Shown here: positions 16,920 through 64,000 of the stretch, piece after piece
How positions within the stretch are numbered: the first letter of the stretch is position 1
Layout of the letters: every line of letters starts with the position of its first letter
Assembly: GCA_025449845.1 (NCBI GenBank)
Contig: JANWIP010000028.1
Location: 1-64,000 of the forward strand
Length of the DNA: 64,000 nucleotides
From: Solirubrobacteraceae bacterium
Lineage (GTDB): Bacteria; Actinomycetota; Thermoleophilia; Solirubrobacterales; Solirubrobacteraceae
Direction: 5' to 3'
Position numbers and translations under genes: made by a program
The notes under the pieces: generated by a model
What the model was told of the DNA's origin: nothing
The model's input: the letters and a program-made list of their open reading frames with translations, nothing else
Databases searched by the model: none

Positions 16920-17084
16920 ATGGCTCGCGGAGACGTTCGGATAGCTATCACCCTCGCTTGCGAGGATTGCAAGCATCGCAACTATCAGACCAATAAGAGC
17001 AAGCGCAACAGCCCCGACCGGGTCTCGCTGCGCAAGTACTGTCGCTGGTGTCGGCACCACACCAGCCACCGGGAGACCCGCTAG
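16920..17084 (+). CDS. rpmG: 50S ribosomal protein L33
   Basis: A 54-residue L33. It keeps both zinc-ribbon pairs (CEDC and CRWC), so it is the zinc-binding C+ form, and it has the typical [21 protein letters not shown] core. L33 sits near the E site of the 50S subunit. It is the first gene of the rpmG-secE-nusG cluster, directly upstream of secE. Confidence 0.95.
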
Positions 17085-17098
17085 CGCGGGATCGCGCT

Positions 17099-17674
17099 TT
17101 GGCTCGTGACCGCAAACGTGCGAAGCAGCGTGCGCAGCGCCGTGGCGCGGCCAAAACCAGCGGCGTGCCGGGGGCGCCGGGCACGCCGGGAGCCGCTGAG
17201 GGCCAGCAGCACGCCTCGCAGCTCACGCGCGCCGACCTGCCCGCCGCCCTGGGGCACATGGGCGATGTCGACGAGTTCGACGCGGCGCTCGTGCGCGGCG
17301 CCGGCGGTGTGCCGATGCCCGAGGGCTCGCCTCTGCCCGGCTCCGAGGATCTCACTGGACTGCCCGACGGCGACGGCGAGCAGCCTGATGGGAGCGACGA
17401 GGAAGCTGTCTCCGCGGGTAACGGCAAGGGCAACGGCGTCACCTCCGCGCCTGTGCGTGCCCCCGCGCGCCCCGATCGCTCCAACCTGTCATTGCCCAAG
17501 CGTGCCAGCGCCTTCCTGCGCGCCTCTTGGGCTGAGCTTCAGCGCGTGCAGTGGCCAAACCGCGCTCAGGTCACTCAGGCCACCGCTGTTGTACTGGGCT
17601 TTGTCGCTGTTGCCGGCATCTATTTCGGTGTCGCCGACTACGTGGCGAAGGAAGTCGTGGAAGCCATCCTCTAG
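17099..17674 (+). CDS. secE: Preprotein translocase subunit SecE with long N-terminal extension
   Basis: The C-terminal 60 residues are a canonical single-span SecE: LRASWAELQRVQWPNRAQVTQATAV followed by the transmembrane segment VVLGFVAVAGIYFGVADYV. It clamps SecY in the translocon. The preceding 130 residues or so form an extension of low complexity: a basic RKRAKQRAQRR start, a Gly/Pro/Ala region, then an acidic stretch with PDGDGEQPDGSDEE. The likely start is TTG at 17099, 14 bases after the rpmG stop; in-frame ATGs in this region do not give a better start. A typical SecE has only 60-130 residues. Confidence 0.85.
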   Translation: MARDRKRAKQRAQRRGAAKTSGVPGAPGTPGAAEGQQHASQLTRADLPAALGHMGDVDEFDAALVRGAGGVPMPEGSPLPGSEDLTGLPDGDGEQPDGSDEEAVSAGNGKGNGVTSAPVRAPARPDRSNLSLPKRASAFLRASWAELQRVQWPNRAQVTQATAVVLGFVAVAGIYFGVADYVAKEVVEAIL

Positions 17675-17838
17675 TCCCATCCTCTAGTCTCTTGCACCCC
17701 GTCTCGGCTTTCAGCGCCGGCGCGGGCCATCGGCGCGGGGGTGGATGGGGTTCCCATCGCTCTCGCGGAGGACGGAAGTCCCGGTGGATCTCTGTCTCGC
17801 TTCTTCTTCGCTCTCTAACTGAACACGTCAGGAATCGC

Positions 17839-18360
17839 ATGTTTCGCTGGTATGTCGTCAACACCTATTCGGGCCACGAGAACAAGGTCAAGCAGAACCT
17901 CGAGCATCGCATCGTCTCGCTCGGGCAGCAGCGTGCCGTGCGCCAGGTGGTGGTCCCCACCGAATCCGTCTCGGAGATGAAGGACAACCAGAAGATCACC
18001 GTCGAGAAGCGCACCATGCCCGGCTACGTTTTGGTCAACATGGAGCTGAACGAGGATTCTTGGGGTGTCGTCAAGGGAACCCCTGGCGTGACCGGCTTCG
18101 TCGGCGCCTCCCAGGAGCCTGTGCCGCTGACCCAGCCTGAGGTGGATCGCCTGCTGCACAAGGAGGTCGCCACGGCTCCGCGCACGCGCGCTCAGTTCAC
18201 GATCGGCGAGACCGTCAAGGTTGTCTCCGGTCCTCTGTCAGACTTCTCCGGCGAGATCTCCGAGATCAACGACGATGCGGCCAAGCTCAAGGTGCTGGTA
18301 TCAATCTTTGGTCGTGAGACTCCCGTAGAGGTAGGCTTCGACCAGGTGAAGAAGCTCTAG
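17839..18360 (+). CDS. nusG: Transcription termination/antitermination protein NusG
   Basis: A 173-residue NusG. The NGN domain begins [21 protein letters not shown] and includes [33 protein letters not shown], which binds RNA polymerase. The C-terminal KOW domain is [25 protein letters not shown]. The ATG at 17839 follows an AGGA site. The 160-bp gap from secE starts with a 13-bp direct duplication around the secE stop (CCATCCTCTAGTC twice). Confidence 0.96.
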
Positions 18361-18362
18361 TT

Positions 18363-18791
18363 ATGGCAAAGAAAGTCCTCACAACCATCAAGCTCCAGGC
18401 CCGCGCCGGCCAGGCTTCGCCTGCGCCCCCGGTTGGTCCTGCGCTGGGCCAGCACGGCATCAACATCATGGAGTTCTGCAAGGCCTTCAATGCGCAGACG
18501 CAGAGCGAAACGGGAACGATCATCCCGGTCGTCATCACCGTCTATGAGGACCGCTCCTTCACCTTCATCACCAAGACGCCGCCTGCCGCTGTGCTGATCC
18601 GCGAAACGCTGCGACTTGAGAAAGGCTCGGGCGAGCCGCATCGCACCAAAGTCGGCAAGCTCACGCAGAAGCAGCTGCGCGAGATCGCCGAGCGCAAGCT
18701 GCCCGATCTGAATGCTCACGATGTGGAGCAGGCCTCGAAGATCATCGCCGGCACCGCTCGTTCGATGGGCGTCGATGTGGAGGCTGCCTGA
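18363..18791 (+). CDS. rplK: 50S ribosomal protein L11
   Basis: A 142-residue L11. The N-terminal domain has [31 protein letters not shown], the thiostrepton-region proline-rich segment, and the C-terminal 23S rRNA-binding domain ends ARSMGVDVE. It starts two bases after nusG and overlaps rplA by one base (TGATG), so translation is coupled. Confidence 0.97.
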
Positions 18792-19653: not shown

Positions 19654-20445
19654 ATGAACCGAGAGCAGAAGGCGGAGGCGATCGCTGAGATCGCCACCAA
19701 CATCAAGGAATCCCAGGCTATTTTCGCGGTCGACTACCGCGGTATCTCCGTGCCGCAGGTGGCTGAGCTGCGCGGCAAGCTGCGCGAGGCCGATGCCACT
19801 TTCCGCGTCGTCAAGAACTCCTTGACCGAGCGCGCCGCCGAGGAGACCGGCACGCCTGAGCTCAAGCCTTTCCTGAAGGGTCCTACCGCTTTGACCTTCG
19901 TACGCGGCGACGCTGCGCTGGCCGCCAAGGCCGTTGCCGACTACGCGCGCGCCACTCAGCTGCTGCCTTTCAAGGGTGGCCTCATGGATGGCAGCGAGGT
20001 GGACGCTGAGCAGATCCGCGCGATCTCGCGCCTGCCTTCGCGCGAAGTGCTCTATGGGCAGCTTGTGGGCATGGTCGCCTCGCCCATCAGTGGCCTCGTA
20101 CGCAGCCTTGGCGGGCTGCTCGGCGGTCTTGCCGTGGCCCTTGGCCAGGTGCAGGAGAAGAAGGTCTCGGGCGAGATCCCCGCGGGCGAGCCGCCTGCGG
20201 CGGCTGAGGCCCCTGCCGCGCCGGAGACGCCTGCTGAGCCGGAGGCTGAGGCTCCTGCCGAGGAGACCCCGGAGGCTGAGGCTCCTGCCGAGGACACGGC
20301 ACCCGAGGCTTCCGCTGAGGAGGCCCCAGCCGGGGACGCTGCACCCGAGAACCAGACTGAGCCGGATTCAGAGCCGGCAACAGACGACAACCCGACGGAG
20401 GCATCGGCTGAGTCCGAGACCGCCGAAGCTAACAAGGAGGACTGA
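19654..20445 (+). CDS. rplJ: 50S ribosomal protein L10 with acidic C-terminal extension
   Basis: Residues 1 to about 167 are a normal L10 ([34 protein letters not shown], and a C-terminal helix that carries L7/L12 dimers). Then come about 96 residues of Ala/Pro/Glu-rich disorder ([21 protein letters not shown] and similar). L10 normally has 165-180 residues, so this tail is an addition. The tail DNA has imperfect repeats of GAGGCTCCTGCCGAGGA. rplL follows four bases after the stop. Confidence 0.95.
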
Positions 20446-20449
20446 ACCA

Positions 20450-21152: not shown

Positions 21153-24932
<3,780 letters not shown>

Positions 24933-29559: not shown

Positions 29560-30633
29560 GTGGCTGGCGTCGTTGCGGCGCGGGCTGTCCGCCGGGGTGT
29601 TTCTCGCTCTGTGCCTGTTGGCCGTCCGCGGGTGGGTGCTGCGCAGGTCACCGAAGTTCAGCGTTCGCGGATGCTCGCGGCGACGGTGCAGGTCGTGGGG
29701 GAGTTGGGTTACGAGAAGATGTCCGTCGCGCGGGTCACTGCGCGGGCAGGTGTGTCGCGGCGCACGTTCTATGACCTCTTCGAGGACCGTGAAGCGTGCT
29801 TCCTGGCTGCCTTCACGGAGACCGTGGAGCGCGCTCGCATGCTCGTGATCGAGGCCACCGTGGACGAGCGGGATTGGCGCTCGCGCTTGCGCGCCGGCCT
29901 GGCCGTGCTGCTGGCGCTCTTCGCGGAGGAGCCGCTGGCGGGCCGTGTCCTGGTGGTCGATGCCTTGAAGGCTGGGCCGGCGGTGCTGGAGCGTCGCGCA
30001 GGTGTGGTGGGGGAGTTGATCGGTGTGGTCGAGGGCGGTCGCGCGCCGGTTGGTGGCAAGCACGCCCAGGGCCGTGGCGGGCGCGAGGTCGCGCCGCTGA
30101 CGGCCGAGGGTGTTGTCGGGGCGGTGCTCGCCGTGGTCCACGCGCGCCTGTCCGAGCAGGGAGGCGGGGCGCGGAAGGCTGGCCTCGACGGAGAGGGACG
30201 CTCGCTGGTCGAGCTTTTGAACCCGTTGATGGCGATGATCGTGCGCCCCTATCTCGGGGCGGCCGCGGCTGAGCGGGAGCTCGAGCGTCCGCTGCCCACG
30301 GGGCGGCGTGCGCGGCGCAAGGCGCCTGTGGATCCGTTGGGGGGCCTGGATATGCGCTTGACGTATCGCACGCTGCGGGTGCTTGCGACGATCGCCGCGG
30401 CGCCGGGGGCGAGTAACAGGCGGGTCGCCGAGGAGGCCGGCGTCGCCGACCAGGGGCAGATATCGAAGCTGCTCGCGCGCCTGGAGAACTTGGGTCTCAT
30501 CCACAACGCCGGTGTCGGGCACCTCAAGGGGGAGCCCAATGCATGGCGGTTGACGAGCAGGGGCCGGGAGGTAGAGCAGGCAGTCCGCGGCGAAGCCGTG
30601 ATCGCAAACCACGAGGAGGGAGCAGTTCAATGA
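29560..30633 (+). CDS. TetR-type regulator fused to a C-terminal winged-helix domain
   Basis: A 357-residue regulator with two DNA-binding domains. Residues about 32-82 form a TetR HTH (RSRMLAATVQVVGELGYEKMSVARVTARAGVSRRTFYDLFEDREACFLAAF). A TetR-like helical ligand domain follows to about 245. Then comes a basic linker and a MarR/ArsR-like winged helix at about 260-345 (TYRTLRVLATIAAAPGASNRRVAEEAGVADQGQISKLLARLENLGLIHN). The start is GTG. Its stop overlaps the ATG of the next gene (ATGA), so it is translationally coupled to the giant secreted protein genes and is presumably their regulator. The ligand is unknown. Confidence 0.82.
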   Translation: MAGVVAARAVRRGVSRSVPVGRPRVGAAQVTEVQRSRMLAATVQVVGELGYEKMSVARVTARAGVSRRTFYDLFEDREACFLAAFTETVERARMLVIEATVDERDWRSRLRAGLAVLLALFAEEPLAGRVLVVDALKAGPAVLERRAGVVGELIGVVEGGRAPVGGKHAQGRGGREVAPLTAEGVVGAVLAVVHARLSEQGGGARKAGLDGEGRSLVELLNPLMAMIVRPYLGAAAAERELERPLPTGRRARRKAPVDPLGGLDMRLTYRTLRVLATIAAAPGASNRRVAEEAGVADQGQISKLLARLENLGLIHNAGVGHLKGEPNAWRLTSRGREVEQAVRGEAVIANHEEGAVQ

Positions 30634-33600
30634 GGAGTTTCAAGGGTATCGTCGCTGTGCTCGCGGTCGTGGTGTGCGGAGTGCTGGTGTTGGGCGCGGG
30701 CTCGGCGCTGGCGGCGTTTACGTACTCGTTTGAACGACAATTCGTGCCGTCGGGTGGGTCGTTTGGCTCGCTTGAAGTGGGCAGTGTGGCGGTTGATGAC
30801 TCGAACGGGAAGACGTATGTAGGCGATTCGGCTTCGGGCACGGTGGATGTCTTTGAAACGGCGACGGGGACCGAACTCCCGGGCTGGAACGGATCGGCCG
30901 CGACCAACCCTCCGGGTACGCCGGCGGGGTCCTTTGGCGGGGGCCAGGTGGAGGTCGCGGCGAACAACGGGACGGGCGATGTGTATGTCCTTGACTCAAC
31001 GGACAACGTCGTCGACGTATTCGACTCGCTGGGTGGCTATGTGTGTCAGATCACGGGCAGCGCGACGCCTTCGGCGAGCGAGTGCAACGGCGCGGCGGGC
31101 AGCAGAACACCGGCGGGCAGGTTCTCCCAGCCGGGTGGGATAGCGGTGGATCAGGCCACTGGGAATGTGTACGTGGTGGACGCGTTCGATGGTGTGGTCG
31201 ATGTGTTCAGCGCGACTGGTGCGTATCTGCCTTCCGCTTCGATCTCGCTCGCTTCGATCCCCGGTGGCTTCCAAGCCAGCGAAGCCAGGTATACGCGTGG
31301 GGTCGCGGTCGATGACTTCAACGGCGATGTGTACGTGTCGGACTCCGGCCGCCCTCGCGTGTACGTCTTCAATGCGGCCGGGGGGTACCTCACGACGTGG
31401 ACAGGGGCGAGTACCCCGGCGGGATCGTTCGGTGGCGGGTATGTCAGCGTCGCCGCGGACGACGGGGGCGGCGAGGTGTACGTCACCGACTCGGCGCACG
31501 GCGTCACCGATGTCTTCGAAGCCTCGGGGGGCTACGTCACCCAGTTCAGCAACTCCTTCGTCAAACCGCTCGGGACCGCCGTGGATCAGGCAACCCACAG
31601 CGTTTACGTCTCTGACAATGAACCGGGCGCCGTCGACATCTTCGGCGCCCTGCTCGTCCCCGACGTCACGACGGGGTCCGCGTCGAACGCGCGGCCCACG
31701 AGCGTGACGCTGAGCGGGACGGTCAACCCCGACGGTCTGCCCGTCACCTCGTGCCTGTTCGAATACGGCACGGAAACCTCCTACGGGCAGACCGCCGAAT
31801 GCGTACCGAGCCCCGGGTCGGGTACCGGCCCGGTCGCGGTCAGCGCAAACCTCTCGGGTCTGCAGGTAGGCGCCGCCTACCACTACCGCTTGGTCGCCGC
31901 GAACGCCAACGGCCTCAACCAGGGCGCCGACGCGCAAGTCACGCTGCCCAGCGCACCGACGATCGACAGCGCGAGCACGGAAAATCTGAGCTCCAGCTCA
32001 GCGGATCTACGCGCCGCGATCAACCCGCACGCCGCAGCGACGACCTACCGCTTCCAGTACGGCACCAGCAGCGCCTACGGCACCAGCGTTCCCGTCCCCG
32101 ACGGGAGCATCGCCGCGGGTCTCGCCAACCGGACCGTCCTCCAGCACGTGACCGGGCTGCAGCCGAACACGACCTACCACTGGCGGGTCATCGCGCAAAA
32201 CCTCGCCGGCACCACCACCGGAGTAGACCACACCTTCTTCTACACCACCACCGGGGTGGCGCTACCGGATAACCGTCAGTATGAGATGGTCACACCGCCG
32301 CACAAGAACGCGGCGCTGATCGGGACTGGGTTCTTCGTTCTTCGTCCCGATGTCTCTCAGGATGGTTCGCGGGTGGTCCTCCAGAGTATTCAGTGTTTTG
32401 GTGGTGCGGGCTCTTGTACAGGGGACAGGGAAGCTAATGGGGAGCCGTTTGGGTTTACGCGTATGAGCGGTGGCTGGGTGACGACGCCATTGGCGCCGCC
32501 GGCGACGCAGTTCGGCGCGAACACTATGAGGTTGGTGAGCGCGGATGCAGGTACCGCGTTGTTCGGTATCCAGACGTCTCCGGCGGGTGGGGATGAGTGG
32601 TATGCGCGCCAACCAGATGGGTCTTTTCTCGATGTCGGCCCGGTGACTCCTCCTTCGCTGGGAACAGTCCTCTCGGCGGTGAGGAAAGTCGTGGCGACGA
32701 CGGCGGATCTCTCACACATCGTATGGAGCACAGCGCCCACGAATGCTGGGTTGTGGCCGTTCGATGCCACGACGGAAGGCACCGGTGGGTCGCTGTACGA
32801 GTATGTGGGCGCCGGTAATGCTGCGCCTGTCCTTGTGGGTGTGAGTGGTGGTGCGGGCAGCACCGATCTGATCGGCGTGTGTGGGGCCGAAGGGGGCGGT
32901 GCTCCTGGGTCGTTGTCTGCTGATGGGCGGGTGGTGTTCTTCGCCGTGGATCCGTGTTCGTCGGGTTCGGGTGTCAATGCGGGTGTTCCCGTGCCGGCGA
33001 GAGAGTTGTTTGCGCGTATCGATGAGTCGCGGTCGGTGTTGGTGTCGGGTCGCTCGCCGGCTGGCTGTACGAGCGTTGCGTGCCTGGGCTCTCCCGTGGG
33101 TGATGCCTGGTTCGTGGGTGCGTCGGTGGATGGGTCCAAGGCGTTCTTCACGAGCACTCAGCAGCTCACCGATGGTGCGAGCGAGGACAGTAGGAGCGGC
33201 GACAGCGCGTATGGCGGCGCGGGCTGCGCTAATGCGACTGGTGTGAATGGTTGTAACTTGTATGAGTATGATTTCGCGAATCCTGCCGGGCATGGTCTGC
33301 TCGCGGTCTCTGCGGGTGATACGAGTGGTGGTGGGCCGCGTGTGCAGGGTGTGGTGGCGAGCTCATCTGATGGTTCGCATGTGTATTTCGTCGCGCGGGG
33401 CGTGTTGAGCGGCGCGGCGAACAGCGAGGGTGGTGTTGCGCGGGATGGTGCGGAGAACCTGTATGTGTTCGAGCGCGACGCGGCTCATCCCGAAGGCCAT
33501 TTGACGTTCATCGCGTCGCTGCCCGAATCCGACGATGAAAATTGGCTAGAAAATTCCCATTCCCGGCTGGCGAATTTGACTCCCGATGGGCGTTTCCTGG

Positions 33601-34460
33601 TGTTCACGAGTCATGGTGCGTTGACGGCGGACGATACGAGCGTGAGCGGCGCGATGCAGGTGTTTCGCTATGACGCGCAGACGGGTGAGCTGGTCAGGGT
33701 CTCGGTTGGGGATCGCGGGTTCAACGACAACGGCAACCGTCCCGCCGGCACGCCCTGCCTGAGCAGTGGGTCTTTTGTGTGTTCGGAGGATGCGACTATC
33801 GCGGAACCGCAGACCACTCGTGCTGGTGTGGCGCGCTTGGATCCGACGATGTCTCATGATGGGTCGTTTGTGTTCTTCCGCAGTCCTGTCGCGTTGACAC
33901 CTGGTGCGCTTGATGATGTGCGGATCGGGGAAGAACCGGGGACGGGCCTGCCGGGGTATACGCAGAATGTGTACGAGTATCACGACGGGAGGGTGTTCCT
34001 GGTCTCTGATGGCAGGGATACGGGGCAGTCCGGCAATGGGTATGAACGCGGTGTGTCCGATGTGCACCTGATCGGCAGCGATGCGACGGGCGCGAATGTG
34101 TTCTTCACGACCGCGGATCGGCTGGTGGGGTCCGATACGGACACGCAGCTCGATTTCTATGACGCGCGGGTGTGTACCGCGGGCGACCCGTGCGTACCGT
34201 CCAGTCCGCCGTCCGTGGCGATGTGTGACGGGGAAGCGTGTCATGGTGCCGCGGGTGTCGCGCCGCCAGTGCCGGCTGGTGCGACCGTGACGTTCGCTGG
34301 CCCGGGGAATCTCGCTGCCGCGCTGGTGGCGCCGAGGAAGGCTGTGGTCAAGAAGCATGTCAAGCATAGGCGTCGTCGTGGGCGACCCGCCAGGCGGCGT
34401 GCGAAGAGCCACGGGGCCACGCACCGTGTTGGCCGTGGGAACAGGGGTGGCAGGTCATGA
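30630..34460 (+). CDS. Giant secreted NHL/FN3/beta-propeller protein with basic C-terminal tail
   Basis: A 1276-residue exported protein. Residues 1-29 are a signal peptide (basic MRSFKG, hydrophobic core, AxA site at SALAA). Residues 30-345 contain NHL-like propeller repeats with the recurring pattern VAVD-N-G-VYV-DS---VDVF. Residues 345-545 hold two FN3-like domains (SVTLSGTVNPDG, then TYRFQYGTSSAYG). Residues 545-1230 look like a TolB/WD40-type propeller (VSQDGSRVV, LTPDGRFLVFTS). The last 40 residues are Lys/Arg/His-rich. There is no LPXTG anchor. GGAGG precedes the ATG, which overlaps the stop of the regulator. Third codon positions are richer in T and G than in neighbours. The function is unknown. 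Confidence 0.8.
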   Translation: MRSFKGIVAVLAVVVCGVLVLGAGSALAAFTYSFERQFVPSGGSFGSLEVGSVAVDDSNGKTYVGDSASGTVDVFETATGTELPGWNGSAATNPPGTPAGSFGGGQVEVAANNGTGDVYVLDSTDNVVDVFDSLGGYVCQITGSATPSASECNGAAGSRTPAGRFSQPGGIAVDQATGNVYVVDAFDGVVDVFSATGAYLPSASISLASIPGGFQASEARYTRGVAVDDFNGDVYVSDSGRPRVYVFNAAGGYLTTWTGASTPAGSFGGGYVSVAADDGGGEVYVTDSAHGVTDVFEASGGYVTQFSNSFVKPLGTAVDQATHSVYVSDNEPGAVDIFGALLVPDVTTGSASNARPTSVTLSGTVNPDGLPVTSCLFEYGTETSYGQTAECVPSPGSGTGPVAVSANLSGLQVGAAYHYRLVAANANGLNQGADAQVTLPSAPTIDSASTENLSSSSADLRAAINPHAAATTYRFQYGTSSAYGTSVPVPDGSIAAGLANRTVLQHVTGLQPNTTYHWRVIAQNLAGTTTGVDHTFFYTTTGVALPDNRQYEMVTPPHKNAALIGTGFFVLRPDVSQDGSRVVLQSIQCFGGAGSCTGDREANGEPFGFTRMSGGWVTTPLAPPATQFGANTMRLVSADAGTALFGIQTSPAGGDEWYARQPDGSFLDVGPVTPPSLGTVLSAVRKVVATTADLSHIVWSTAPTNAGLWPFDATTEGTGGSLYEYVGAGNAAPVLVGVSGGAGSTDLIGVCGAEGGGAPGSLSADGRVVFFAVDPCSSGSGVNAGVPVPARELFARIDESRSVLVSGRSPAGCTSVACLGSPVGDAWFVGASVDGSKAFFTSTQQLTDGASEDSRSGDSAYGGAGCANATGVNGCNLYEYDFANPAGHGLLAVSAGDTSGGGPRVQGVVASSSDGSHVYFVARGVLSGAANSEGGVARDGAENLYVFERDAAHPEGHLTFIASLPESDDENWLENSHSRLANLTPDGRFLVFTSHGALTADDTSVSGAMQVFRYDAQTGELVRVSVGDRGFNDNGNRPAGTPCLSSGSFVCSEDATIAEPQTTRAGVARLDPTMSHDGSFVFFRSPVALTPGALDDVRIGEEPGTGLPGYTQNVYEYHDGRVFLVSDGRDTGQSGNGYERGVSDVHLIGSDATGANVFFTTADRLVGSDTDTQLDFYDARVCTAGDPCVPSSPPSVAMCDGEACHGAAGVAPPVPAGATVTFAGPGNLAAALVAPRKAVVKKHVKHRRRRGRPARRRAKSHGATHRVGRGNRGGRS

Positions 34461-34486
34461 ACGGGTACTGGACAGGGGAGGTCTCT

Positions 34487-37400
34487 ATGCGCGGGCAGGT
34501 AACGGCCGGACGGTCGTTGGTGGTGTGGCTGGCTGTGTTCTTGGCGGCTGGTTGTGTTTCGCTGCTGCTCGCGAGTTCGGTGCTCGCGGTAGCGCCGAGT
34601 GCGGGGTTGACGATTCATTCGTTCGCGTCGCCGAGCAACTTCACCGTTGAGAGTGACCAGACCGCTGCATGTCTGGCGAGCCTTAGCGGCAGAGAATTCG
34701 TGTGTGATGAGTATGAGGTGACGGTGAGGAACGTGGGTAGCGTAGCGACGGATGGAAGCCCGATCGTGATCGCGGATACGCTGCCCGCTGGTGTGATGGT
34801 GCGGAGCATTCATTCTTACCTGTACACGCCGAACGGCCACCCAACGGAAGGTTTCCCCTGCGATACGGTGTCGGTGCGGTGTGAATTCCCGCTAGCGTTG
34901 GCACCGGATGAAACGCTGAACATGTATATCCAGGTGGCGCTCGAACCGGGCGCTTCGGGGGCTCTCGTGAACACCGCGAGGGTCTCGGGTGGCGGCGCAT
35001 CGGAAGCTGTCACGAGCGCGCGGAACAAGATCTCGACAATTCCTGCGGTATTCGGTGTGAGTCTCAGCCCGAGTATCGCCGGGTTGGACGGTGCGCCGTA
35101 TACCCAGGCGGGTGGTCATCCGTACGGGTTCACAACGAGGATCGACTTCAACAACGACCACGCGCACCATCCAGAAGAAGGCACCGACAGTGCGGGGCAT
35201 CGGGCAGCAACAAGTGTACAGGATATCAAGGATTTGGCGGTGGATCTGCCGTTGGGGTTCCTCGGCAGCGCTCTCGCGACCCCGAAGTGCACGCTTGCGC
35301 AGCTCTCTACCGGAGGCGGTGGAGGGGTTGGAAACGCCAGTAGCTGTCCGCCCGCTTCGCAGGTCGGGTATATAACGACGGAGCCTTCCAACGAGGCAGG
35401 TGTCGATAGTCGGTTGTTCAACATGGTGCCCGAGCGTGGCGTCGCATCGGAGTTCGGTTTTTACGATAATCTCAGGGGTTCGCATGTGCTGTATGCGAGC
35501 GTCGTCCCGACACCCAAGGGTTATGTGCTGCGCACGACGAGCCCCGACGCGCCGCAGGTCTCCCTGGTGGATATCGAAGTGACGTTGTATGGGAATCCCG
35601 CGGCGCGCGACGGCGCCGGGGGCACGCCGGTGGCGTTATTCACGAACCCCTCGAGCTGCTCGGGGGAACCGTTGGTCACGTCGATTCACATGGATTCGTG
35701 GCAGAGCCCTGGCCGGTTCAACGCGGATGGCACGCCTGATTTCAGCGATCCTGCGTGGGTGTCGAGCACGTCGGAATCGCCGCCTGTGACGGGTTGTAAC
35801 TTGTTGCGTTTCGAACCGTCGTTGAGTGTGCGGCCGGAAACGGCGGTGGCGGATAGTCCGACGGGGTTGAGTGTGGATGTGAGGGTCCCGCAGAGTGAGG
35901 ATCCCGAAACGCTTGCGACGTCGCCGCTAAGGGATGCGGCGGTGATGCTGCCGGCGGGGTTGACGCTGAACCCCTCCGCCGCGACGGGACTGGGCGCGTG
36001 CTCAGAAGCGCAGATCGGGTTGGGTAGCGCGGGTGAGCCCACGTGCCCAGGATCTTCGAAGATCGGGTCGGTGGAAGTGAGTACCCCGCTGGTCGAAGGG
36101 ACCCTGGTGGGGTCGGTGTACTTGGCGAGGCAGAACGAAAACCCGTTCCACACCCTATTGGCGGGGTACATCGTGATCGACGACCCCACGACGGGTGTGG
36201 TCGTGAAGCTTCCAGGGAGCCTCACGCCGGACCCGAGCACGGGTCAGATCACGGGGGTGTTCAAGGACAACCCGCAGTTCCCCGTCGGTGATTTGAAGCT
36301 CCACTTCTTCGGTGGTGCAAGGGGGGAGCTGGCGACCCCCACTGGTTGCGGGACGTACACCACCACGTCGGATTTGATGCCGTGGTCCGCACCGGATTCC
36401 GGGCCCGACGCGACACCCTCGGATAGCTTCCCGATCAACACCGGGTGCGTAAGCGCCTTCACGCCAGGCTTCACCGCGGGGAGTACGAGTACGCAGGCGG
36501 GTGGGTACTCCCCGTTCACGCTGTCCCTCTCAAGGAGCGATGGGGATCAGACTCTCGGGGGGGTCAGTGTGACGTTGCCGCAGGGTTTGTTGGGGAAAAT
36601 CGCGGGGATACCCCGGTGCCCCGATGCGAACGCGAACGCCGGGACGTGCCCCGAAGTTTCACGGGTCGGGACCGTCAACGTCGGTGCGGGTGTCGGCCCG
36701 GACCCGTTGTTCGTGGCCGGCAAGGCGTATCTGACGGGCCCGTATAACGGTGGGCCCTATGGGTTGGTGGTCGAGGTCCCGGCGGTCGCGGGCCCGTTTG
36801 ACCTCGGGATGGTCGCTGTCCGCCAGTCGCTGCGGATCGACCCGCATACCGCGCAGGTCACGGATGTCTCCGACGCGTTCCCCACGATCCTTCAGGGCAT
36901 TCCCCTGCGGGTGCGCAGGGTGGACGTGACGTTGGATAGGCCCGGGTTCACGTTTAACCCGACGAACTGCACCCCGATGGCGGTCACGGGCACCGTGAGC
37001 TCTACCGCGGGTGCTACGGCGAGCGTGTCCTCACGCTTCCAGGCGGGTGGCTGCCGTGAACTCGCGTTCAAACCGTCGTTCAAGGTCTCAACACAGGCGA
37101 GGACGAGTAAGAAGAACGGTGCGAGCCTCGATGTGAAAGTCGCCTACCCCGCGGGGGCCCAGGCGAACATCCGCAGTGTCGCGGTGACGTTGCCCAAGGC
37201 GCTGCCCTCACGGCTCTCCACGATCCAGCAGGCGTGCACCGAAGCGGCGTTCAACACGAACCCCGCTTCTTGTCCGGCGGGGTCGAACATCGGGACGGCG
37301 ACGGCGACCACACCGGTCCTCGCGAACCCCCTCACGGGCCCTGCGTACCTGGTGTCTCATGGTGGCGCGGCGTTCCCGGATGTCGTGATCGTGTTCCAAA

Positions 37401-37723
37401 GCGAAGGCGTCACCCTCGACCTCGTGGGGAGCGTCAACATCAAGAAACAGGTCACCAGCAGCGCGTTCAACAGTGTCCCCGACGCGCCGATCTCGAGCTT
37501 CGAGCTGAAGCTCCCCGAGGGACCGCACTCCGGGCTCGCCGCCGTACTCCCCGCGAAAGCGAAGGGGAACCTCTGCGGCACGAGCCTCACGATGCCCACC
37601 ACCCTCACCGGCCAGAACGGAGCGCAACTCAAACAGAACACCAAGATCCAGATCACCGGCTGCCCCAAGACCAAGAAGAAGACTAAGCCCAAGCACAAGA
37701 AGGCACATAAAGCAGCGGAGTAA
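34487..37723 (+). CDS. Second giant secreted protein with DUF11-like N-terminus and basic tail
   Basis: A protein of about 1078 residues. The first in-frame ATG (34457) overlaps the previous stop, but AGGGGAGG lies 5 bases before ATG 34487. That start gives a standard signal peptide (MRGQVTAGRS, then a Leu/Ala/Val core ending near SSVLA). The N-terminal 120 residues resemble a DUF11-type domain (VTVRNVGSVATDGSPIVIAD, LPAGV). The rest contains three loosely repeated modules with LPAGLTLNP, CxxAQIG-PxCPxxSKIG and VYLA-NPF-LL motifs. Paired cysteines suggest disulfides outside the cell. It ends in a Lys-rich tail (KTKKKTKPKHKKAHK). It is probably co-exported and a partner of the preceding protein; the role is unknown. 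Confidence 0.75.
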   Translation: MRGQVTAGRSLVVWLAVFLAAGCVSLLLASSVLAVAPSAGLTIHSFASPSNFTVESDQTAACLASLSGREFVCDEYEVTVRNVGSVATDGSPIVIADTLPAGVMVRSIHSYLYTPNGHPTEGFPCDTVSVRCEFPLALAPDETLNMYIQVALEPGASGALVNTARVSGGGASEAVTSARNKISTIPAVFGVSLSPSIAGLDGAPYTQAGGHPYGFTTRIDFNNDHAHHPEEGTDSAGHRAATSVQDIKDLAVDLPLGFLGSALATPKCTLAQLSTGGGGGVGNASSCPPASQVGYITTEPSNEAGVDSRLFNMVPERGVASEFGFYDNLRGSHVLYASVVPTPKGYVLRTTSPDAPQVSLVDIEVTLYGNPAARDGAGGTPVALFTNPSSCSGEPLVTSIHMDSWQSPGRFNADGTPDFSDPAWVSSTSESPPVTGCNLLRFEPSLSVRPETAVADSPTGLSVDVRVPQSEDPETLATSPLRDAAVMLPAGLTLNPSAATGLGACSEAQIGLGSAGEPTCPGSSKIGSVEVSTPLVEGTLVGSVYLARQNENPFHTLLAGYIVIDDPTTGVVVKLPGSLTPDPSTGQITGVFKDNPQFPVGDLKLHFFGGARGELATPTGCGTYTTTSDLMPWSAPDSGPDATPSDSFPINTGCVSAFTPGFTAGSTSTQAGGYSPFTLSLSRSDGDQTLGGVSVTLPQGLLGKIAGIPRCPDANANAGTCPEVSRVGTVNVGAGVGPDPLFVAGKAYLTGPYNGGPYGLVVEVPAVAGPFDLGMVAVRQSLRIDPHTAQVTDVSDAFPTILQGIPLRVRRVDVTLDRPGFTFNPTNCTPMAVTGTVSSTAGATASVSSRFQAGGCRELAFKPSFKVSTQARTSKKNGASLDVKVAYPAGAQANIRSVAVTLPKALPSRLSTIQQACTEAAFNTNPASCPAGSNIGTATATTPVLANPLTGPAYLVSHGGAAFPDVVIVFQSEGVTLDLVGSVNIKKQVTSSAFNSVPDAPISSFELKLPEGPHSGLAAVLPAKAKGNLCGTSLTMPTTLTGQNGAQLKQNTKIQITGCPKTKKKTKPKHKKAHKAAE

Positions 37724-54394: not shown

Positions 54395-55175
54395 CGCCCC
54401 CATGCTTGGCGCAACCAAGAAAGTGAAGCTCGATGAGAGCGCGTTCACAGCGGGCTTCCACGAAGCGTTGGTGCACCAGAGCGTGCGCGCCGAGCAGGCC
54501 GCGCGCCGGCGCGGAACCGCCGCGACGAAGACGCGCGCCATGGTGCGCGGCGGCAGCGCCAAGCCGTGGCGCCAGAAGGGCACTGGCCGTGCCCGTGCGG
54601 GCTCAAGCCGCTCGCCGATCTGGACGGGCGGTGGCGTTGTATTCGGCCCCCAGCCGCGCAGCTTTACGTTCAAGGTGAATCGCAAGGAGAAGCGCGTGGC
54701 GCTGCGCAGCGCACTGTCGCTGCATGCCGAGCGCGGCTCGATCGCGGTGCTTGATGCAAGCGCCTTCAAAGCGCCCAAGACCAGCCAGGCCGCAGACCTT
54801 CTTGATGGATGGGGTCCCGCCCGCCCGGCCGGCCCAACGCTGGTGGTGTTGGCGGCAGAGGAGTCCTCAGCGGCACTGTCCTTCCGCAACATCGACCGCG
54901 TTGCCGTATTGGCGCACGAGAGTGTAGGCGTGGTCGATCTGCTCGGTGCGGCTTCAGTTGTCGTCTCGCAGGCCGCGCTCGATGCGCTCACTGCGCGTGC
55001 TGGCGGCAAGGCTGAGGAGCCTAACGCTGCGGCTAAGGTGCCCGCTGAGAAGACTGCCCCCAAGGCTGCTGCCGAGGAGCCAAAGGCCGCGGCTAAGGTG
55101 CCCGCTGAGAAGTCCGCCTCCAAGGCTGCTGCCGAGGAGCCAGAGGCGAGCGACGCCGAGGAGGATAAGTCCTGA
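54387..55175 (+). CDS. rplD: 50S ribosomal protein L4 with C-terminal repeat tail
   Basis: A 262-residue protein. The first 207 or so are L4 ([43 protein letters not shown], the exit-tunnel loop). The last 55 are a Lys/Ala/Glu tail made of two near-identical 20-residue units (AAAKVPAEK...KAAAEEP), encoded by a 60-bp tandem DNA duplication at 55026-55085 and 55086-55145. The ATG at 54387 lies within the end of rplC. L4 also has an autoregulatory role in enterobacteria, not assumed here. Confidence 0.95.
55026..55145 (+). repeat. 60-bp tandem duplication in rplD tail
   Basis: Two 60-bp units (55026-55085, 55086-55145) differ at only a few positions and keep the reading frame. They encode the Lys/Ala/Glu tail of L4. 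Confidence 0.9.
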
Positions 55176-56603: not shown

Positions 56604-57449
56604 ATGAGCCCCGAGGAGAAGACACCGGCCGAGCCCGAGGAGGCGGCGGCCAAGAAGCCGGCGGCCAAGGAGCCTGCCGAGAAGCCGGCCGCGAAGAAGC
56701 CTGCTGAGAAGCCGGCGGCCGAGAAGAAACCGGCGACGAAGGCTACGGCTGAGAAGAAGCCGGCTACGGCCGAGAAGAAACCTACTGAGAAGGCTGTCGC
56801 CGAGGAGGCCGCCGAGAAGAAGCCCGCTCGCGCCGCCAAGGCTCCTGCGGCCAAGACTGAGGCCGCTGCGGAGAAGAAGCCGGCGACGGCGAAGAAGGCG
56901 AGCGAGGAGACCAGCGCCGAGGCAAAGCCGGCGGCGAAGGCCAAGAGCGCCAAGAAGGACAATGAGTCTGAGGGCGAGCCCAAGTCCGAGGGCGAGGCCA
57001 AGCCCAAGACGCCGGCCAAGCCCAAGCCCTCCGCGGATGAGCCGGCTGACAAGCCAGCCGAGAAGCCAGCGCCTGCTCCTCGGCGCGGCACGACGGCACC
57101 CCGCCGCGCGGTGGTGCGCGCCCACGCGCGCTACGTACGCACCTCGGCGCGCAAGGCGCGGATGGTGTGCGGCCACATCCGTGGGAAGAGCGTGCAGGAG
57201 GCACGCGCTATCCTCGCGTTCACCCCTCGTGACGTGGCCCGCGACTGGAGCAAGCTGCTTGAGTCGGCGGTGGCCAACGCGGAGAACAACCACGAGCTGC
57301 TCGAGGATGATCTGATTATCCGCGAGGCCTACGCTGATGAGGGACCCACGATCAAGCGCTTTCGGCCGCGCGCCATGGGTAGGGCGACGCCGATTCGCAA
57401 GCGCACCAGCCACCTGACGATCACGCTTACGCCTGAAGAGAAGCGCTAG
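56604..57449 (+). CDS. rplV: 50S ribosomal protein L22 with histone-H1-like N-terminal extension
   Basis: A 281-residue protein. The normal L22 begins at about residue 160 ([31 protein letters not shown]) and includes the tunnel loop [20 protein letters not shown]. The first 160 residues are made almost only of Lys, Ala, Pro and Glu in [16 protein letters not shown] units, like histone H1 or mycobacterial HupB tails. The ATG directly after the rpsS stop is the only reasonable start. No stop breaks this frame, so the extension is likely translated. Confidence 0.92.
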
Positions 57450-57488: not shown

Positions 57489-58562
57489 ATGGGTCAGAAG
57501 GTTCATCCAGAGGCAATGCGAGTCGGGTATATCCACGACTGGAAGTCGAACTGGTTCAACGAGCGTCACTTCGCGGAGTACCTCCATGAGGACATCAAGA
57601 TCCGTGAGCACATCATCGGTCGCCTCGCGCACGCTGGCCTCTCGGACATAACGATCCGCAAGGACTCAAACGAGCTTGAGGTCGACATTCACACCGCGCG
57701 CCCGGGCATCGTGATCGGCAAGTCGGGCAGCGAGGTGGACGCGCTGCGCCGCGATCTGCACAAGATGACCAAGAAGCAGATCAAGGTCAACATTCACGAG
57801 ATCAAGCGTCCCGAGCTCGACGCCAAACTGGTGGCGCAGTCGATCGCCGAGCAGCTTCAGAACCGCGTCGCCTTCCGCCGCGCCATGAAGCGCGCGCTCA
57901 CAAGCGCCATGCGCAGCGGCGCCAAGGGCGTCAAGGTTCAGGTCTCCGGCCGCCTGGGCGGCGCCGAGATGGCGCGCACCGAGAGCTACTCCGACGGCAG
58001 AGTGCCGCTGCACACGATGCGCGCGGACATCGACTACGGCTTTTATGAGGCCCGCACCACCTTCGGCCGCATCGGCGTGAAGTGCTGGGTCAACAAGGGC
58101 GAGATCATGCCCGAGGGCTACACCGGCGCTGACCTCACGGACATGAGCGCACCTGCTCCCCCCAGCGATCGCGACAGCCGCGGGGGACGTGACGGGCGCG
58201 ACGGACGCGGACGCGGGCGCGGCGGGCCGGGCGGTGGTGGCGGTCGTGGCCGTGGTCCTGGCGGTCCGGGCGGGTCCGGTGGAGGCGGACGTGGCGGCCC
58301 TGGTGGCGGCTCAGGCGGCGGTCGTGGCGGTGGCGGCTTTGGTGGCGGCGGTGGCGGTCGTGGTTCCGGCGGACCGGGCGGTAATCGCGGCGGCGGGCCC
58401 GGCGGTGGCGGTGGCGGACGTGGTCCTGGCGGTCCGGGTGGCGGTCGTGGGCCGGGTGGCCCCGGTGGTGGTTCCGGCGGCGGTCGCGGGCCGGGTGGGC
58501 CGGGTGGTCCTGGCGGCGGACGCGGTGGGCGAGGCTCAGGCAGTCCTGAGGTGACGCGCTGA
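57489..58562 (+). CDS. rpsC: 30S ribosomal protein S3 with RGG-type C-terminal extension
   Basis: A 357-residue protein. Residues 1 to about 217 are S3: [22 protein letters not shown], a KH domain with [16 protein letters not shown], and the C-terminal [23 protein letters not shown]. The last 137 are nearly all Gly, Arg and Pro ([22 protein letters not shown]), a long RGG box. S3 lies at the mRNA entry site and has helicase activity, so the tail could contact incoming mRNA. The tail DNA is internally repetitive. The stop overlaps rplP (TGATG). Confidence 0.93.
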
Positions 58563-59234: not shown

Positions 59235-59924
59235 ATGGCTGACGACGCAGACAACGAGACAACTGAGACCTCCGAGCCGCAGGCTCCCGAGAGCGAGGCC
59301 GCTGCCGCTGAGGCTCCCGCGGCGGATGCCCCTACCCCTGAGGCTGCTGAGGCACAGGACGCCCCGGCTGCCGAGGCTGAGAGCGCCAAGCCCGTGGCCG
59401 AGGAGGCCCCGGTGCAGGCACAGGCGCCAGCGGCCCCGAGCGAGCCCGTGGAGCAGATCTCCTCCAAAGAGCGTCGCCGCGGCGAACGCTCCAAGCACAG
59501 CGGCGAGGCCAAGCCGCGGCGCACCCCCGAGGAGCGCCATGCCGAGCGTCTTGCTGAGCGTAAAGCCAAGGCCATCAAGCGCCGCACGCGGCGCTTGCAG
59601 GAACGCGCCAAGGCGGCAGAGCGCCGCAAGACCGCCCCTGCACAGGAGCCGTTGGCGCCGGTGCATGCCCGCACCGAGGGCACGCGCAAGGTACGGCAGG
59701 GCGTCGTCACCTCCGACAAGGCCGACAAGACGATCACGGTGCGCATCGACATCGCCCGCCGTCATCGGCGCTACGAGAAGATCGTGCGCAGCTCGAGCAC
59801 GCTGCACGCCCACGACGAGAACAACGAGGCGCACGAGGGCGACGTGGTGCGCGTGGAGGAGAGCCGGCCGCTGTCGCGCTCCAAGCGCTGGCGCCTCATC
59901 GATGTGCTGGAGAAGGCCCGATGA
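59235..59924 (+). CDS. rpsQ: 30S ribosomal protein S17 with long N-terminal extension
   Basis: A 229-residue protein. The OB-fold S17 core starts at about residue 147 ([35 protein letters not shown]). Before it comes an acidic Ala/Pro/Glu region (residues 1-75) and then a strongly basic helix ([38 protein letters not shown]). A normal S17 has 80-95 residues. AAACC rather than a clear Shine-Dalgarno precedes the ATG at 59235. A start nearer the core is possible but no in-frame alternative stands out. Confidence 0.92.
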
Positions 59925-60679: not shown

Positions 60680-61582
60680 ATGAGCACATCCACATCCACA
60701 CAGACACCTCGACTGAAGACCCGCTACCTGGAGGAGATCCGCCCGGCGCTGATCGAGCGCTTCGGCTACTCCACGCCGATGCAGGCTCCGCGCTTGACGA
60801 AGATCACTCTGAACATGGGCGTAGGCGACGCCAAGCAGGACTCCAAGGCCTTGGGTAACGCACAGGAGCAGCTGGCCACGATCGCTGGTCAGCAGCCCAG
60901 CGTGCGCCGTGCACGCAAGTCGATTGCCGCCTTCAAGCTGCGCGAGGGCATGCCCGTGGGCGTTGCCGTCACGCTGCGAGCCGAGCGCTGCTACGAGTTC
61001 CTCGATCGTCTCACCTCAATCGCGCTGCCCCGCGTGCGCGACTTCCGCGGTCTTACGCCGAAGTCCTTCGATGGGCGCGGCAACTACTCGCTCGGCGTGC
61101 GCGAGCAGATCATCTTCCCCGAGATCGACTATGACTCGATCGATCAGGTGCGCGGGCTTGACATTACGATCACTACCACCGCCGTCACCGATGTCGAGGC
61201 GTTTGCGCTGCTCACGGCGCTGGGGATGCCCTTCTCGACCTATCAGCGCCCAGCTGGCTTCAACGAGGCCGTCGGCTATGTGCCCGAGGAGGACCCGCGG
61301 CCCGGCTCCAAGCCTGCGCCCCCCAAGGTGACCCCCGAGCCTGTAGCGGAGGAGCCTGCTGCTGAGGCGGCCTCTGAGCCCGCTGCCGAGGAGGCGCCGG
61401 TGCCCGCTGCCGAGGAGGCGCCGGTGCCCGCTGTCGAGGAGGCGCCGGTGCCCGCTGTCGAGGAGGCGCCCGAGCCCGCTGCCGAAGGGACCCCTGAGCC
61501 CGCTGCCGAGGCAGCAACTGATACCAACCCCGATTCCGCGAGCGCCGAGACCGACGCAAACGAGCAGGAGGACGAAGCCTGA
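60680..61582 (+). CDS. rplE: 50S ribosomal protein L5 with acidic repeat tail
   Basis: A 300-residue protein. Residues 1 to about 200 are L5 ([57 protein letters not shown]). The last 98 are acidic and Pro/Ala-rich, including four copies of EEAPVPA(A/V) from a 24-bp DNA repeat at 61388-61483. L5 binds 5S rRNA and contacts the P-site tRNA. The stop overlaps rpsN by one base. Confidence 0.95.
61388..61483 (+). repeat. 24-bp tandem repeat in rplE tail
   Basis: Four units of 24 bp (start GAGGAGGCGCCGGTGCCC) at 61388, 61412, 61436 and 61460, in frame, encode EEAPVPA(A/V). The unit length allows copy-number change without a frameshift. Confidence 0.9.
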
Positions 61583-61767: not shown

Positions 61768-61801
61768 GCCTCCAAGAAAGCCTTCGACCCTTCATCAAGC
61801 C

Positions 61802-62209
61802 ATGTCAATGACCGACCCCATAGCCGACTTCCTCACGCGGATTCGCAATGCGATCCACGCTGCTCACGAGACCGCCGACATCCCCGCCTCCAAGCTGAAG
61901 GGCGAGATGGCGCGGATTCTCACCGAGCAGGGTTACATCGAATCCTGGTCGGTGGCCCCCGCGCCCGACGGCGCGGCCGGCGAAGTGATCCAGATTCGCC
62001 TCAAGTACACCGACGACCGCCGCTCGGCCATCTCTGGCCTACGTCGCGTGTCGCGACCGGGCAGGCGCACCTACGTCGATGCTCGCAGCATCCCCAAGGT
62101 GCAGGGCGGCATGGGCACCTCGATCGTCTCAACCTCGCGTGGCGTAATGACCGGCCACGATGCTCGCGCTGCGGGCGTCGGCGGCGAGGTCCTGGCGCAG
62201 GTCTGGTAG
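61802..62209 (+). CDS. rpsH: 30S ribosomal protein S8
   Basis: A 135-residue S8. It starts MSMTDPIADFLTRIRNAIHAAHETADIPASKLK and ends with the conserved GMGTSIVSTSRGVMTGHDARAAGVGGEVLAQVW. Normal length. Confidence 0.97.
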   Translation: MSMTDPIADFLTRIRNAIHAAHETADIPASKLKGEMARILTEQGYIESWSVAPAPDGAAGEVIQIRLKYTDDRRSAISGLRRVSRPGRRTYVDARSIPKVQGGMGTSIVSTSRGVMTGHDARAAGVGGEVLAQVW

Positions 62210-62218
62210 TCAAGAGCG

Positions 62219-62752
62219 ATGTCGAGAATCGGTAGACAGCCTATTCCCTTGCCCGCCGGCGTTAGCGTCGCCATCGAGCCAGAGTCGGTCAGCGTTAAAG
62301 GCCCCAAGGGCGAGCTTTCCGAGCGCATCCCGCGCGACATCGACGTCGTGCAGGAGGGCGAGCAGCTGCTCGTCTCGCGTCCCACCGACCGCGGCCAGCA
62401 CCGCGCGCTGCACGGTCTCACGCGTTCGCTGGTGGCCAACATGGTGCAGGGCGTCACGGCGGGCTACGAGAAGCGCCTGGAGATCCAGGGCGTCGGCTAT
62501 CGCGCGCAGCTGAAGGGCAAGAACCTTGAGCTGGCCGTGGGCTACTCCCACCCGGTGCCAATTCCCGCCCCCGAGGGCATCGAATTTGAAGTGCCTCAGC
62601 CCACGAGGATCGTGGTGAAGGGCATCTCCAAGCAGCAGGTTGGCGAGACGGCGGCGATCATCCGCAAGCAGCGCCCGCCGGAGCCTTACAAGGGCAAGGG
62701 CATCCGCTACGAGGGCGAGTACGTCGCTCGCAAGGTCGGTAAGCGCGCATGA
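62219..62752 (+). CDS. rplF: 50S ribosomal protein L6
   Basis: A 177-residue L6 near the factor-binding site. It has [59 protein letters not shown] and the C-terminal [14 protein letters not shown]. It overlaps rplR (ATGA). Confidence 0.97.
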
Positions 62753-63102
62753 CCGTTCTTACGAAGGGCGATCGCCGGCTCTCGCGCCGCCGCCGCGTGC
62801 GTGCCAAGGTCTCGGGCACCGCCGCGCGTCCGCGCGTCTCCGTCTTCCGCTCCAACAAGGGCCTCTCCGCGCAGCTCATCGACGACGACTCAGGCCGCAC
62901 GCTGGCCGCCGTCAACTGGTACGAGCCAGATCTGCGCCAGCTCAGCAAAGCCGAGCGCACCTCGCGCGCCGCCGCGTTGCTAGGCGAGCGCGCCAAGGCC
63001 GCCGGTGTCGACACCGTCGTGTTCGATCGCGGCGGCTACCGCTACCACGGCCACGTCCGCACCTTCGCCGAAGCGCTGCGCGAGACCGGCATCGCTTTCT
63101 AG
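62749..63102 (+). CDS. rplR: 50S ribosomal protein L18
   Basis: A 117-residue 5S-rRNA binding L18. It has [44 protein letters not shown] and [26 protein letters not shown]. Normal length. Confidence 0.97.
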
Positions 63103-63191
63103 GCCCCTCACCTTCCTCTTCATTTGCAGACCCCTCACCTCACCTTCTCTCCTTCTCACACCTTCCCCCGCTACCCTCACCTCTTCCTCTT
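63103..63191 (+). other. Polypyrimidine spacer between rplR and rpsE
   Basis: An 89-base gap that is almost wholly C and T (for example CTCACCTCACCTTCTCTCC). It runs right up to the rpsE ATG with CCTCTTCCTCTT and has no purine Shine-Dalgarno. No gene is seen in it. Confidence 0.8.
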
Positions 63192-64000
63192 ATGAACTCA
63201 GATCGCTCAGTTAGCTCAGCCGGCCTCGACCTCCAGGAGCGCGTCGTGGAGATCAACCGCGTCGCCAAGGTCGTCAAGGGCGGTCGTCGCTTCTCTTTCA
63301 CCGCCCTCGTCGTCGTCGGTGATGAGCGCGAGATCGTTGGCATCGGCTATGGCAAGGCCAACGAGGTGCCGCTGGCGATCCAGAAGGGTGTCGAGCGCGC
63401 CAAGAAAGATCTCTTCCGGGTGCCTAAGCACGGCAGCACCATCACGCATCAGACCACGGGTGTCTTCGGTGCGGGGCGCGTGTTCCTCAAGCCTGCCGCT
63501 CCGGGTACGGGAGTCATCGCCGGTGGTGGCGTACGCGCGGTGCTGGAGCTTGCGGGGATTCACGACATTCTTTCCAAGAGCCTTGGCACGCAGAACCCGA
63601 TCAACCTGGTTAAGGCCACCGTTGCCGGCCTGCGCGGACTGCGCACGCCTGCCGAGGTAGCCGAGCTGCGCGGCCTTTCGATAAACAAGGTCCTGGGTCT
63701 CACCGAGCAGCCGACCAATGGCGCTGCCGAGGCCGCCCCGGCCAGGGAGTCGGAGACAGAGGCAGCCGCTCCGGCCGGCGATAGCGCGCCCGAGGCAGCC
63801 GCGGCCGAGGCCGCTCCCGCCGAGGCCCCAGCTGCTGCGGAGACTGCATCTGCTCCTGCCGAGGCTCCCACTGCTGCGGAGGCCGCGTCTGCTCCTGCCG
63901 AGGCCCCCGCTGCTGCGGAGGCCGCGTCTGCTCCTGCCGAGGCTCCCGCTGCTGCGGAGGCCGCGTCTGCTCCTGCCGAGGCTCCCGCCGAGGCCCCAGT
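63192..64000 (+). CDS. rpsE: 30S ribosomal protein S5 with Ala/Pro/Glu tail (runs off window)
   Basis: At least 269 codons, open to the window edge. The start [47 protein letters not shown] and the loop [21 protein letters not shown] are canonical S5, as is [34 protein letters not shown]. After about residue 170 an Ala/Glu/Pro tail begins, with four 13-residue units ([13 protein letters not shown]) from a 39-bp DNA repeat at 63831-63986. The ATG is preceded by pyrimidines, not a Shine-Dalgarno. Confidence 0.95.
63831..63986 (+). repeat. 39-bp tandem repeat in rpsE tail
   Basis: Four units of 39 bp at 63831, 63870, 63909 and 63948. The last two are identical and the first two differ at a few bases. 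Each encodes 13 residues. Confidence 0.9.

Follow-up and report, generated by a model that had tools for sequence, protein, structure and literature searches.

The question raised by the locus described here is why a bacterium should carry long low-complexity additions on many of its ribosomal proteins, and whether such additions are peculiar to one genome. The locus is a stretch of 64,000 bases from a Solirubrobacteraceae bacterium (bases 1-64000 of the 169 kb contig JANWIP010000028.1, in a draft genome of 3.27 Mb), hereafter the window, and it holds the secE-nusG-L11-L1-L10-L7/L12-rpoBC gene cluster followed by the str, S10 and spc clusters. A preliminary description had listed extensions on nine of the encoded proteins (L22, S17, S3, L5, S5, L4, L10, RpoB and SecE), and hidden Markov model (HMM) cores and core ends confirm all nine. 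By L2, the closest named relatives are records of Solirubrobacteraceae and Solirubrobacterales, in line with the class Thermoleophilia as the most likely home of the organism. The tails characterize the whole order (Solirubrobacterales and kin, Thermoleophilia) and are no peculiarity of this genome. The N-terminal extension of S17 is an exception among them, in that it contains a conserved basic module which is predicted to be largely helical and is thus not simply disordered.

Terminal extensions in the window and in its order

Extra residues were counted as those outside the HMM cores of 21 ribosomal proteins, built from ten Bacillota loci (Clostridia and kin), with the L10 tail counted after a core end that we set ourselves; about 42 ribosomal proteins were inspected in the genome. 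The extensions in the window are as follows (aa, amino acid residues; charges are net).

17099..17500, + strand: SecE N-terminal extension, 134 aa from TTG at 17099 or 112 aa from GTG at 17165
20164..20442, + strand: L10 C-terminal acidic tail, 93 aa, charge -28
24588..24929, + strand: RpoB acidic tail at the C-terminus, some 114 aa beyond LGIDLSG
55005..55172, + strand: L4 C-terminal tail, 56 aa, charge -4, with a 60-bp tandem repeat
56604..57101, + strand: L22 N-terminal tail, 166 aa, charge +9, an Ala/Lys/Glu/Pro polyampholyte
58242..58559, + strand: S3 C-terminal Gly/Arg tail, 106 aa past the core, charge +11
59235..59462, + strand: acidic outer part of the S17 N-terminal extension (residues 1-76)
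59463..59669, + strand: basic inner module of the S17 N-terminal extension (residues 77-145)
61241..61579, + strand: L5 C-terminal acidic tail, 113 aa, charge -25, with a 24-bp tandem repeat
63699..64000, continuing to 64079 beyond the window, + strand: S5 C-terminal acidic tail, 127 aa, charge -23, with a 39-bp tandem repeat

The S5 gene starts at ATG 63192 and ends at 64079, outside the window. The start of SecE is uncertain; in genome G145, from the same genus, the protein begins with VARDRKRAKQR, the counterpart of LARDRKRAKQR at 17099. For S17 the extra residues total 145 with respect to a Clostridia-type core, and RpoB runs 141 residues past its universal core end, about 114 of them past LGIDLSG, a segment common to other actinobacteria. 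By the criterion of more than 20 extra terminal residues, L22, S17, S3, L5, S5, L4, L15 and L10 are extended; L15 and L24 carry 22 and 13 extra N-terminal residues, respectively, against the same cores. The extended set is therefore real but larger than first listed, as further additions lie elsewhere in the genome: measured against Pfam domains, S2 has 169 residues after the domain, S9 154 before it, S6 53 after it and IF-3 79 after it, and the longest open frame of L21, whose start is not settled, has 53 before it. Summed over this genome, the cost amounts to some 1,100-1,200 extra residues per ribosome.

The proteins previously called normal are indeed so. S10, L3, L23, L2, S19, L16, L29, L14, S14, S8, L6 and L18 lie within about 10 residues of their cores (S10 and L29 depending on the start), NusG, L11 and L1 are compact with 0 to 7 extra residues, and L33, S12, S7, EF-G and EF-Tu are of normal size as judged by eye; L13, L20 and S16 are likewise ordinary in length. 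With neighbouring ribosomal proteins this compact, a general effect on all genes is unsupported, in agreement with the preliminary description. A rough gene list of the contig, which misses L4, S3 and S5, contains shadow frames and is indicative only, shows 8 of 71 frames with low-complexity ends, and 5 of these 8 encode ribosomal proteins. Such ends also occur on other proteins. A protein that we take, from its sequence, to be TruA-like ends in repeated GDDAS units (locus L082, at about 71.8-72.7 kb of the contig), and L193 and L197, together with L082, show a presumably RluD-like protein with a low-complexity start and an IF-3 with a 79-residue end; tail growth is therefore not limited to ribosomal proteins.

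The comparative sample comprised 80 S10/spc loci from 80 genomes together with the window (33 from the order, 27 from elsewhere in the class and 20 from elsewhere in the phylum), as well as 40 rif loci besides that of the window. Families are labelled f1 to f10, genomes by G-numbers and loci by L-numbers, and the tree was built from concatenated ribosomal protein cores. Tails at the same termini recur across the order, including the complete genome of Paraconexibacter antarcticus (L014), and with many genomes sharing them, one of these complete, an assembly artefact of a single draft genome is ruled out. On the tree, each of the order's 32 genomes has an S17 N-terminal tail, of 62-193 residues, and the seven genomes of the sister family f5 have 5-9; L22 N-terminal tails are found in f3 and f4, in most of f1 and in some of f2. 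These S17 and L22 lengths, like those in the six-protein ranking below, use the most upstream allowed start and may be overstated; automatic start choice fell on internal starts in some L22, S17 and S5 genes, giving negative N-terminal values. C-terminal tails on L5 and S5 are common and uneven in the order, and L10 tails of at least 20 residues occur in 19 of its 22 genomes. Mapping on the class tree, as the preliminary description had proposed, shows that the tails mark the order while their lengths drift, even within a genus (127 versus 35 residues for S5 and 113 versus 187 for L5 in G000 and G145). Among the 67 of 81 loci with all six proteins of the ranking, the window comes first with a tail total of 713 residues, the medians being 375 for the order (n=25), 167 for other members of the class (n=25) and 90 for other members of the phylum (n=17).

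The preliminary description had named the occurrence of the same tails in unrelated actinobacteria as evidence against its reading, and the outcome differs between proteins. S3 C-terminal tails of at least 20 residues are present in 11 of the 20 loci outside the class, 8 of them acidic, and acidic RpoB tails occur there as well as in f8, where two genomes have RpoB tails of 107 and 109 residues. Together with SecE, whose N-terminal extensions reach 22-91 residues in other families of the class, RpoB is thus one of the weaker cases, although the window tail is the longest of the 21 RpoB tails measurable in the 41 rif loci (6 lacked the end motif used; in the others the gene end or a hit was missing). 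The basic module of S17, on the other hand, was found by whole-genome search in 0 of the 115 other genomes of the class. Family f8 has none of the S3, L22 and S17 tails and only S5 ends of 14-35 residues, and f6, f7 and f10 have S17 N-terminal and S3 C-terminal tails in which the S17 module of the order was not found. Separately, two public metagenome-assembled genome (MAG) records titled Chlamydiae and Bifidobacterium breve (L009 and L019) look mislabelled or contaminated, because of an L2 that is 84 and 70% identical to that of the window and the Thermoleophilia-type tails on neighbouring ribosomal proteins.

Charge, coding constraint and the S17 module

Among tails of at least 20 residues in the order, the sign of the charge is strongly conserved on several proteins: L10 is negative in 19 of 19, S5 in 28 of 29 (the other being zero), L5 in 19 of 21 (two zero) and RpoB in 10 of 10, and S3 is positive in 18 of 20. 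The summed charge of the six ribosomal protein tails is negative in 22 of the 25 genomes of the order, and with L10, S5 and L5 staying acidic this fits the charged coat suggested at the outset. The charges first assigned to the window thus stand for L10, L5, S5, RpoB and S3, whereas a strongly basic L22 tail is ruled out by its net +9 over 166 residues. The L5 sign does not hold beyond the order, since the short L5 ends of f5 are basic in all seven cases. When the DNA of the L10, L5, S5 and RpoB tails is read in the other two forward frames it yields positive chains, with medians of 0.23 to 0.38 per residue, and the frames of the reverse strand give -0.05 to 0.42.

Sequence comparison suggests that the tails are translated and under purifying selection. 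The ratio of nonsynonymous to synonymous substitution rates (dN/dS; Nei-Gojobori, protein-guided alignment) is 0.15-0.63 for tails in all 16 pairs compared, 12 of which come from one genus and in which two genomes are each used twice; the cores give 0.03-0.27, and the tail lies above its own core in every pair. In DNA-only alignments of six pairs, differences at codon positions 1, 2 and 3 number 280, 283 and 538 of 1488 each (19, 19 and 36%), and all 50 gaps are multiples of three, a preference that repeats of period three can favour. Chance or a frame artefact is ruled out by the dN/dS values, the charge of the other frames and the codon-position differences. Tandem arrays overlap eight of the nine tails, SecE being the exception, and the periods listed are all multiples of three. 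The L5 tails of f2, of some f1 genomes and of a single f3 genome contain a conserved segment (LEQLKEENPEAY or near), and an HMM built from f2 matches 6 of 7 f2, 3 of 12 f1 and 1 of 2 f3 tails, whereas the window L5 has Ala/Glu/Pro/Val repeats in its place. Tail sequence can therefore change while acidity stays.

The preliminary description had treated all the additions as disordered, which agrees with AlphaFold2 for the L22 tail (block means of 41-59, of low confidence, over residues 1-170) and for residues 1-70 of S17 (41-52); the disorder of the remaining tails was judged solely by composition. It does not agree for the inner part of S17, where helices are predicted with moderate confidence at residues 77-89 and confidently at residues 98-133 (59526-59633), with block means of the predicted local distance difference test (pLDDT) of 94-97 over residues 101-130 in the best model. 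This bipartite organization extends to charge, for among S17 tails of at least 80 residues in the class the outer half is negative in 32 of 34 and the inner half positive in 32 of 34, so that the tail is near neutral overall. When only f1 sequences are used to build it, an HMM of the inner 75 residues matches the S17 tails of f2 (7/7), f3 (3/3, one only at E 0.0038) and f4 (2/2); at E 0.01 it matches none of the other tails. Whole genomes were also searched with nine pieces of the module, and 32 of the order's 35 genomes each gave a single match, always some 300 bases or less upstream of the L14 gene, at the place of S17; as nine of these genomes supplied rows of the model, the independent matches are 23 of 26. 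Two of the three genomes missed (G017 and G099) have S17 tails on the tree, and in the third (G005) the contig starts 339 bases before L14. The S17 basic module is a specific element, of a kind that surveys labelling such regions as disordered would miss.

The L22 tail varies in other ways across the class. In L092 and L094 (G082 and G095, of one genus) it contains a His-rich acidic stretch that is perhaps metal-binding. In a Thermoleophilaceae MAG (L015:11127-11753, the same contig as L109), L22 carries an N-terminal SAP domain (Pfam E 9.4e-13). At the Pfam gathering score the window L22 has no SAP match, only Ribosomal_L22 being matched; a hand-written SAP-like pattern, which can miss relatives, occurs in that one contig only among the loci scanned, and no paper on a SAP-L22 fusion was found by title.

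Function of the tails and competing explanations

The explanation that we favour, to which we would give an even chance, is that the tails, born from repeats, have been retained as a surface layer that is acidic for the most part, S17 being anchored on 16S ribosomal RNA (rRNA). In-frame expansion of short tandem repeats would be the main source of new tails and of changes in their length, as the arrays themselves suggest, and selection would keep a bulk property (negative charge and few hydrophobic residues) and not the exact sequence, in line with sign conservation and dN/dS. The ribosomal sites of these proteins being known from structures, L10 would bring the flexible, mostly acidic layer to the stalk, L5 to the central protuberance and S5 to the back of the 30S subunit, and the tails of S3 and L22, of Arg/Gly or mixed-charge type, would lie at the messenger RNA (mRNA) entry and on the surface of the 50S subunit, respectively. 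By analogy with the shorter uS17 extensions seen elsewhere, the inner module of S17 most likely lies on 16S rRNA near h7 and h9, and would present its acidic outer tail to the solvent. It seems plausible that the layer acts by electrostatics, keeping ribosomes apart from one another, from DNA and from stray RNA in a crowded cytoplasm.

Several observations weigh against this reading. By dN/dS, evolution is about 1.5 to 11 times faster in the tails than in the cores, dS is high in the more distant pairs, and in low-complexity sequence the aligner favours amino acid matches and gaps of three, inflating the signal of selection; the weakest of the six DNA-aligned pairs has 18, 20 and 25% differences at codon positions 1, 2 and 3. 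The sign of the charge is not uniform, S3 being acidic in 2 of 20 tails and L22 split between 9 negative and 9 positive (G087, whose frame looked wrong, was omitted), and the six-protein sum is positive in 3 of 25 genomes (G106 +1, G099 +3 and G133 +11) and, with L10 included, still positive in 2 of 20. One reverse-strand frame is slightly negative for the L10 and S5 tails (medians -0.05 and -0.02), and composition therefore explains a little of the acidity. The S3 tail is missing from several f2 and f3 genomes, and mean pLDDT exceeds 70 in only two of the five S17 models, the other three being near 54.

A strong rival, which we rate as possible yet clearly short of even, is a near-neutral ratchet in which slippage in GC-rich DNA adds tolerated residues at exposed termini and selection does no more than purge hydrophobic, aggregating or strongly RNA-binding versions, leaving most tails, the S17 module excepted, without positive function. 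The drift of lengths inside a genus is what such a process would produce, as are the period-three arrays in eight of nine tails and the low-complexity ends of IF-3 and the TruA-like protein; HMMs of the f1 tails of S5, L10, L22 and SecE, moreover, match f1 tails only (E 0.001). It accounts less readily for a charge sign kept on L10, S5 and L5 across the order, for dN/dS below 1 in every pair, for an S17 tail that is never lost on the tree and for the cost in residues that each ribosome bears. At the opposite end, the tails may form a selected, two-layer electrostatic corona, in which basic, rRNA-anchored inner segments (the S17 helix and parts of L22 and S3) would carry an outer brush of about 1,000 acidic or mixed-charge residues, on ten proteins and both subunits, that sets ribosome spacing and nucleoid exclusion. 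We regard this as doubtful, and no description of a dedicated colloidal ribosome coat was found in the literature searched.

It is rather unlikely that the tails are mainly rRNA-binding arms aiding the folding of the 30S and 50S subunits. The S17 inner module, basic, conserved and largely helical by prediction, would suit such a role, and in the Cutibacterium acnes ribosome the uS17, uL5 and uL22 N-terminal extensions touch rRNA, according to the available text of PMC10085706; but acidity makes L10, L5, S5 and the outer half of S17 ill-suited to rRNA binding, and L22 is near neutral and predicted disordered throughout. Least probable of all is the proposal, also made in the preliminary description, that the acidic RpoB tail and the basic or Gly/Arg tails of S3 and L22 join polymerase, nucleoid and ribosomes or drive condensation: the long RpoB and S3 tails of this genome speak for it, but a polymerase tether is unsupported, being weakened by the like charges of the RpoB, L10, S5 and L5 tails, in keeping with ribosomal tails that are mostly net negative in the order, and by the f8 genomes with long RpoB tails and no S3, S17 or L22 tails, while the S3 tail is missing from several f2 and f3 genomes and the SAP domain on the L22 of L015, confined to one contig in the pattern scan, is an isolated hint of nucleic-acid tethering and the sole hint of a link to the nucleoid.

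Other features of the window concern none of these tails. Between rpoC and the str cluster, a HipA-like gene (39149-40854; Pfam HipA_C and Couple_hipA) lies behind a small open reading frame at the antitoxin's place, and the region 29560-37720 contains a frame with a match to TetR_N and a sub-threshold one to MarR, followed by two large frames that match NHL/Fn3 and DUF11 weakly. At 4493-4597 there is a perfect 24-bp tandem repeat, and a 55-bp repeat (98% matches) at 14501-14622, within the open frame of a Na/Ca-exchanger-like protein.

This order bears on the function of disordered extensions on bacterial ribosomal proteins. It provides a natural series in which the same termini span a several-fold range of lengths with the charge kept on three proteins; the series includes named species (Paraconexibacter antarcticus and Solirubrobacter phytolaccae), and f8, with its nearly tail-free ribosomal proteins, offers a control within the class.

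Comparison with known systems

Disordered tails on ribosomal proteins are already known from Mycoplasma, Mycobacterium and Cutibacterium, and the tails described here are a longer, clade-wide version of them; the S17 module and the clade-wide conservation of charge sign are the new parts of the finding. A review of ribosomal protein extensions exists (PMC11764897), cited here, like the three studies that follow, from the part of its text that was accessible, and among open-licence papers none was found on such extensions in Thermoleophilia. In M. pneumoniae, 11 of 52 ribosomal proteins are extended, most of the extensions being predicted as disordered, and their disruption affects fitness or survival; such extensions are called common throughout the bacterial kingdom (PMC9534751). 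The preliminary description had termed the present combination extreme, which holds for length within our sample but, given that count, not clearly for the number of proteins. As opposed to what is reported for M. pneumoniae, and leaving lengths out of the comparison, the order shows sign-conserved acidic tails on L10, L5 and S5, the S17 basic module and a distribution followed on the tree of one class.

The C. acnes 70S ribosome has a uS17 N-terminal extension that contacts h9, a uL5 C-terminal extension of 31 residues, a mostly disordered uS9 N-terminal extension of 46, a disordered uL4 C-terminus 100 residues longer than that of Escherichia coli, and N- and C-terminal extensions on both uL22 and uS5 (PMC10085706). 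Several of the same proteins are thus extended in both cases, but the S17, L5, L22 and S9 tails are longer here and S5 is extended at its C-terminus only; tails on L10 and S3 are not named in the accessible text of that study. In the M. smegmatis 70S ribosome the uS17 N-terminal extension contacts h7 and h9, and flexible uS3 and uS5 extensions lie at the mRNA entry (PMC5876184); the uS17 extension there is of about 13 residues, as against 145 in the genome analysed here.

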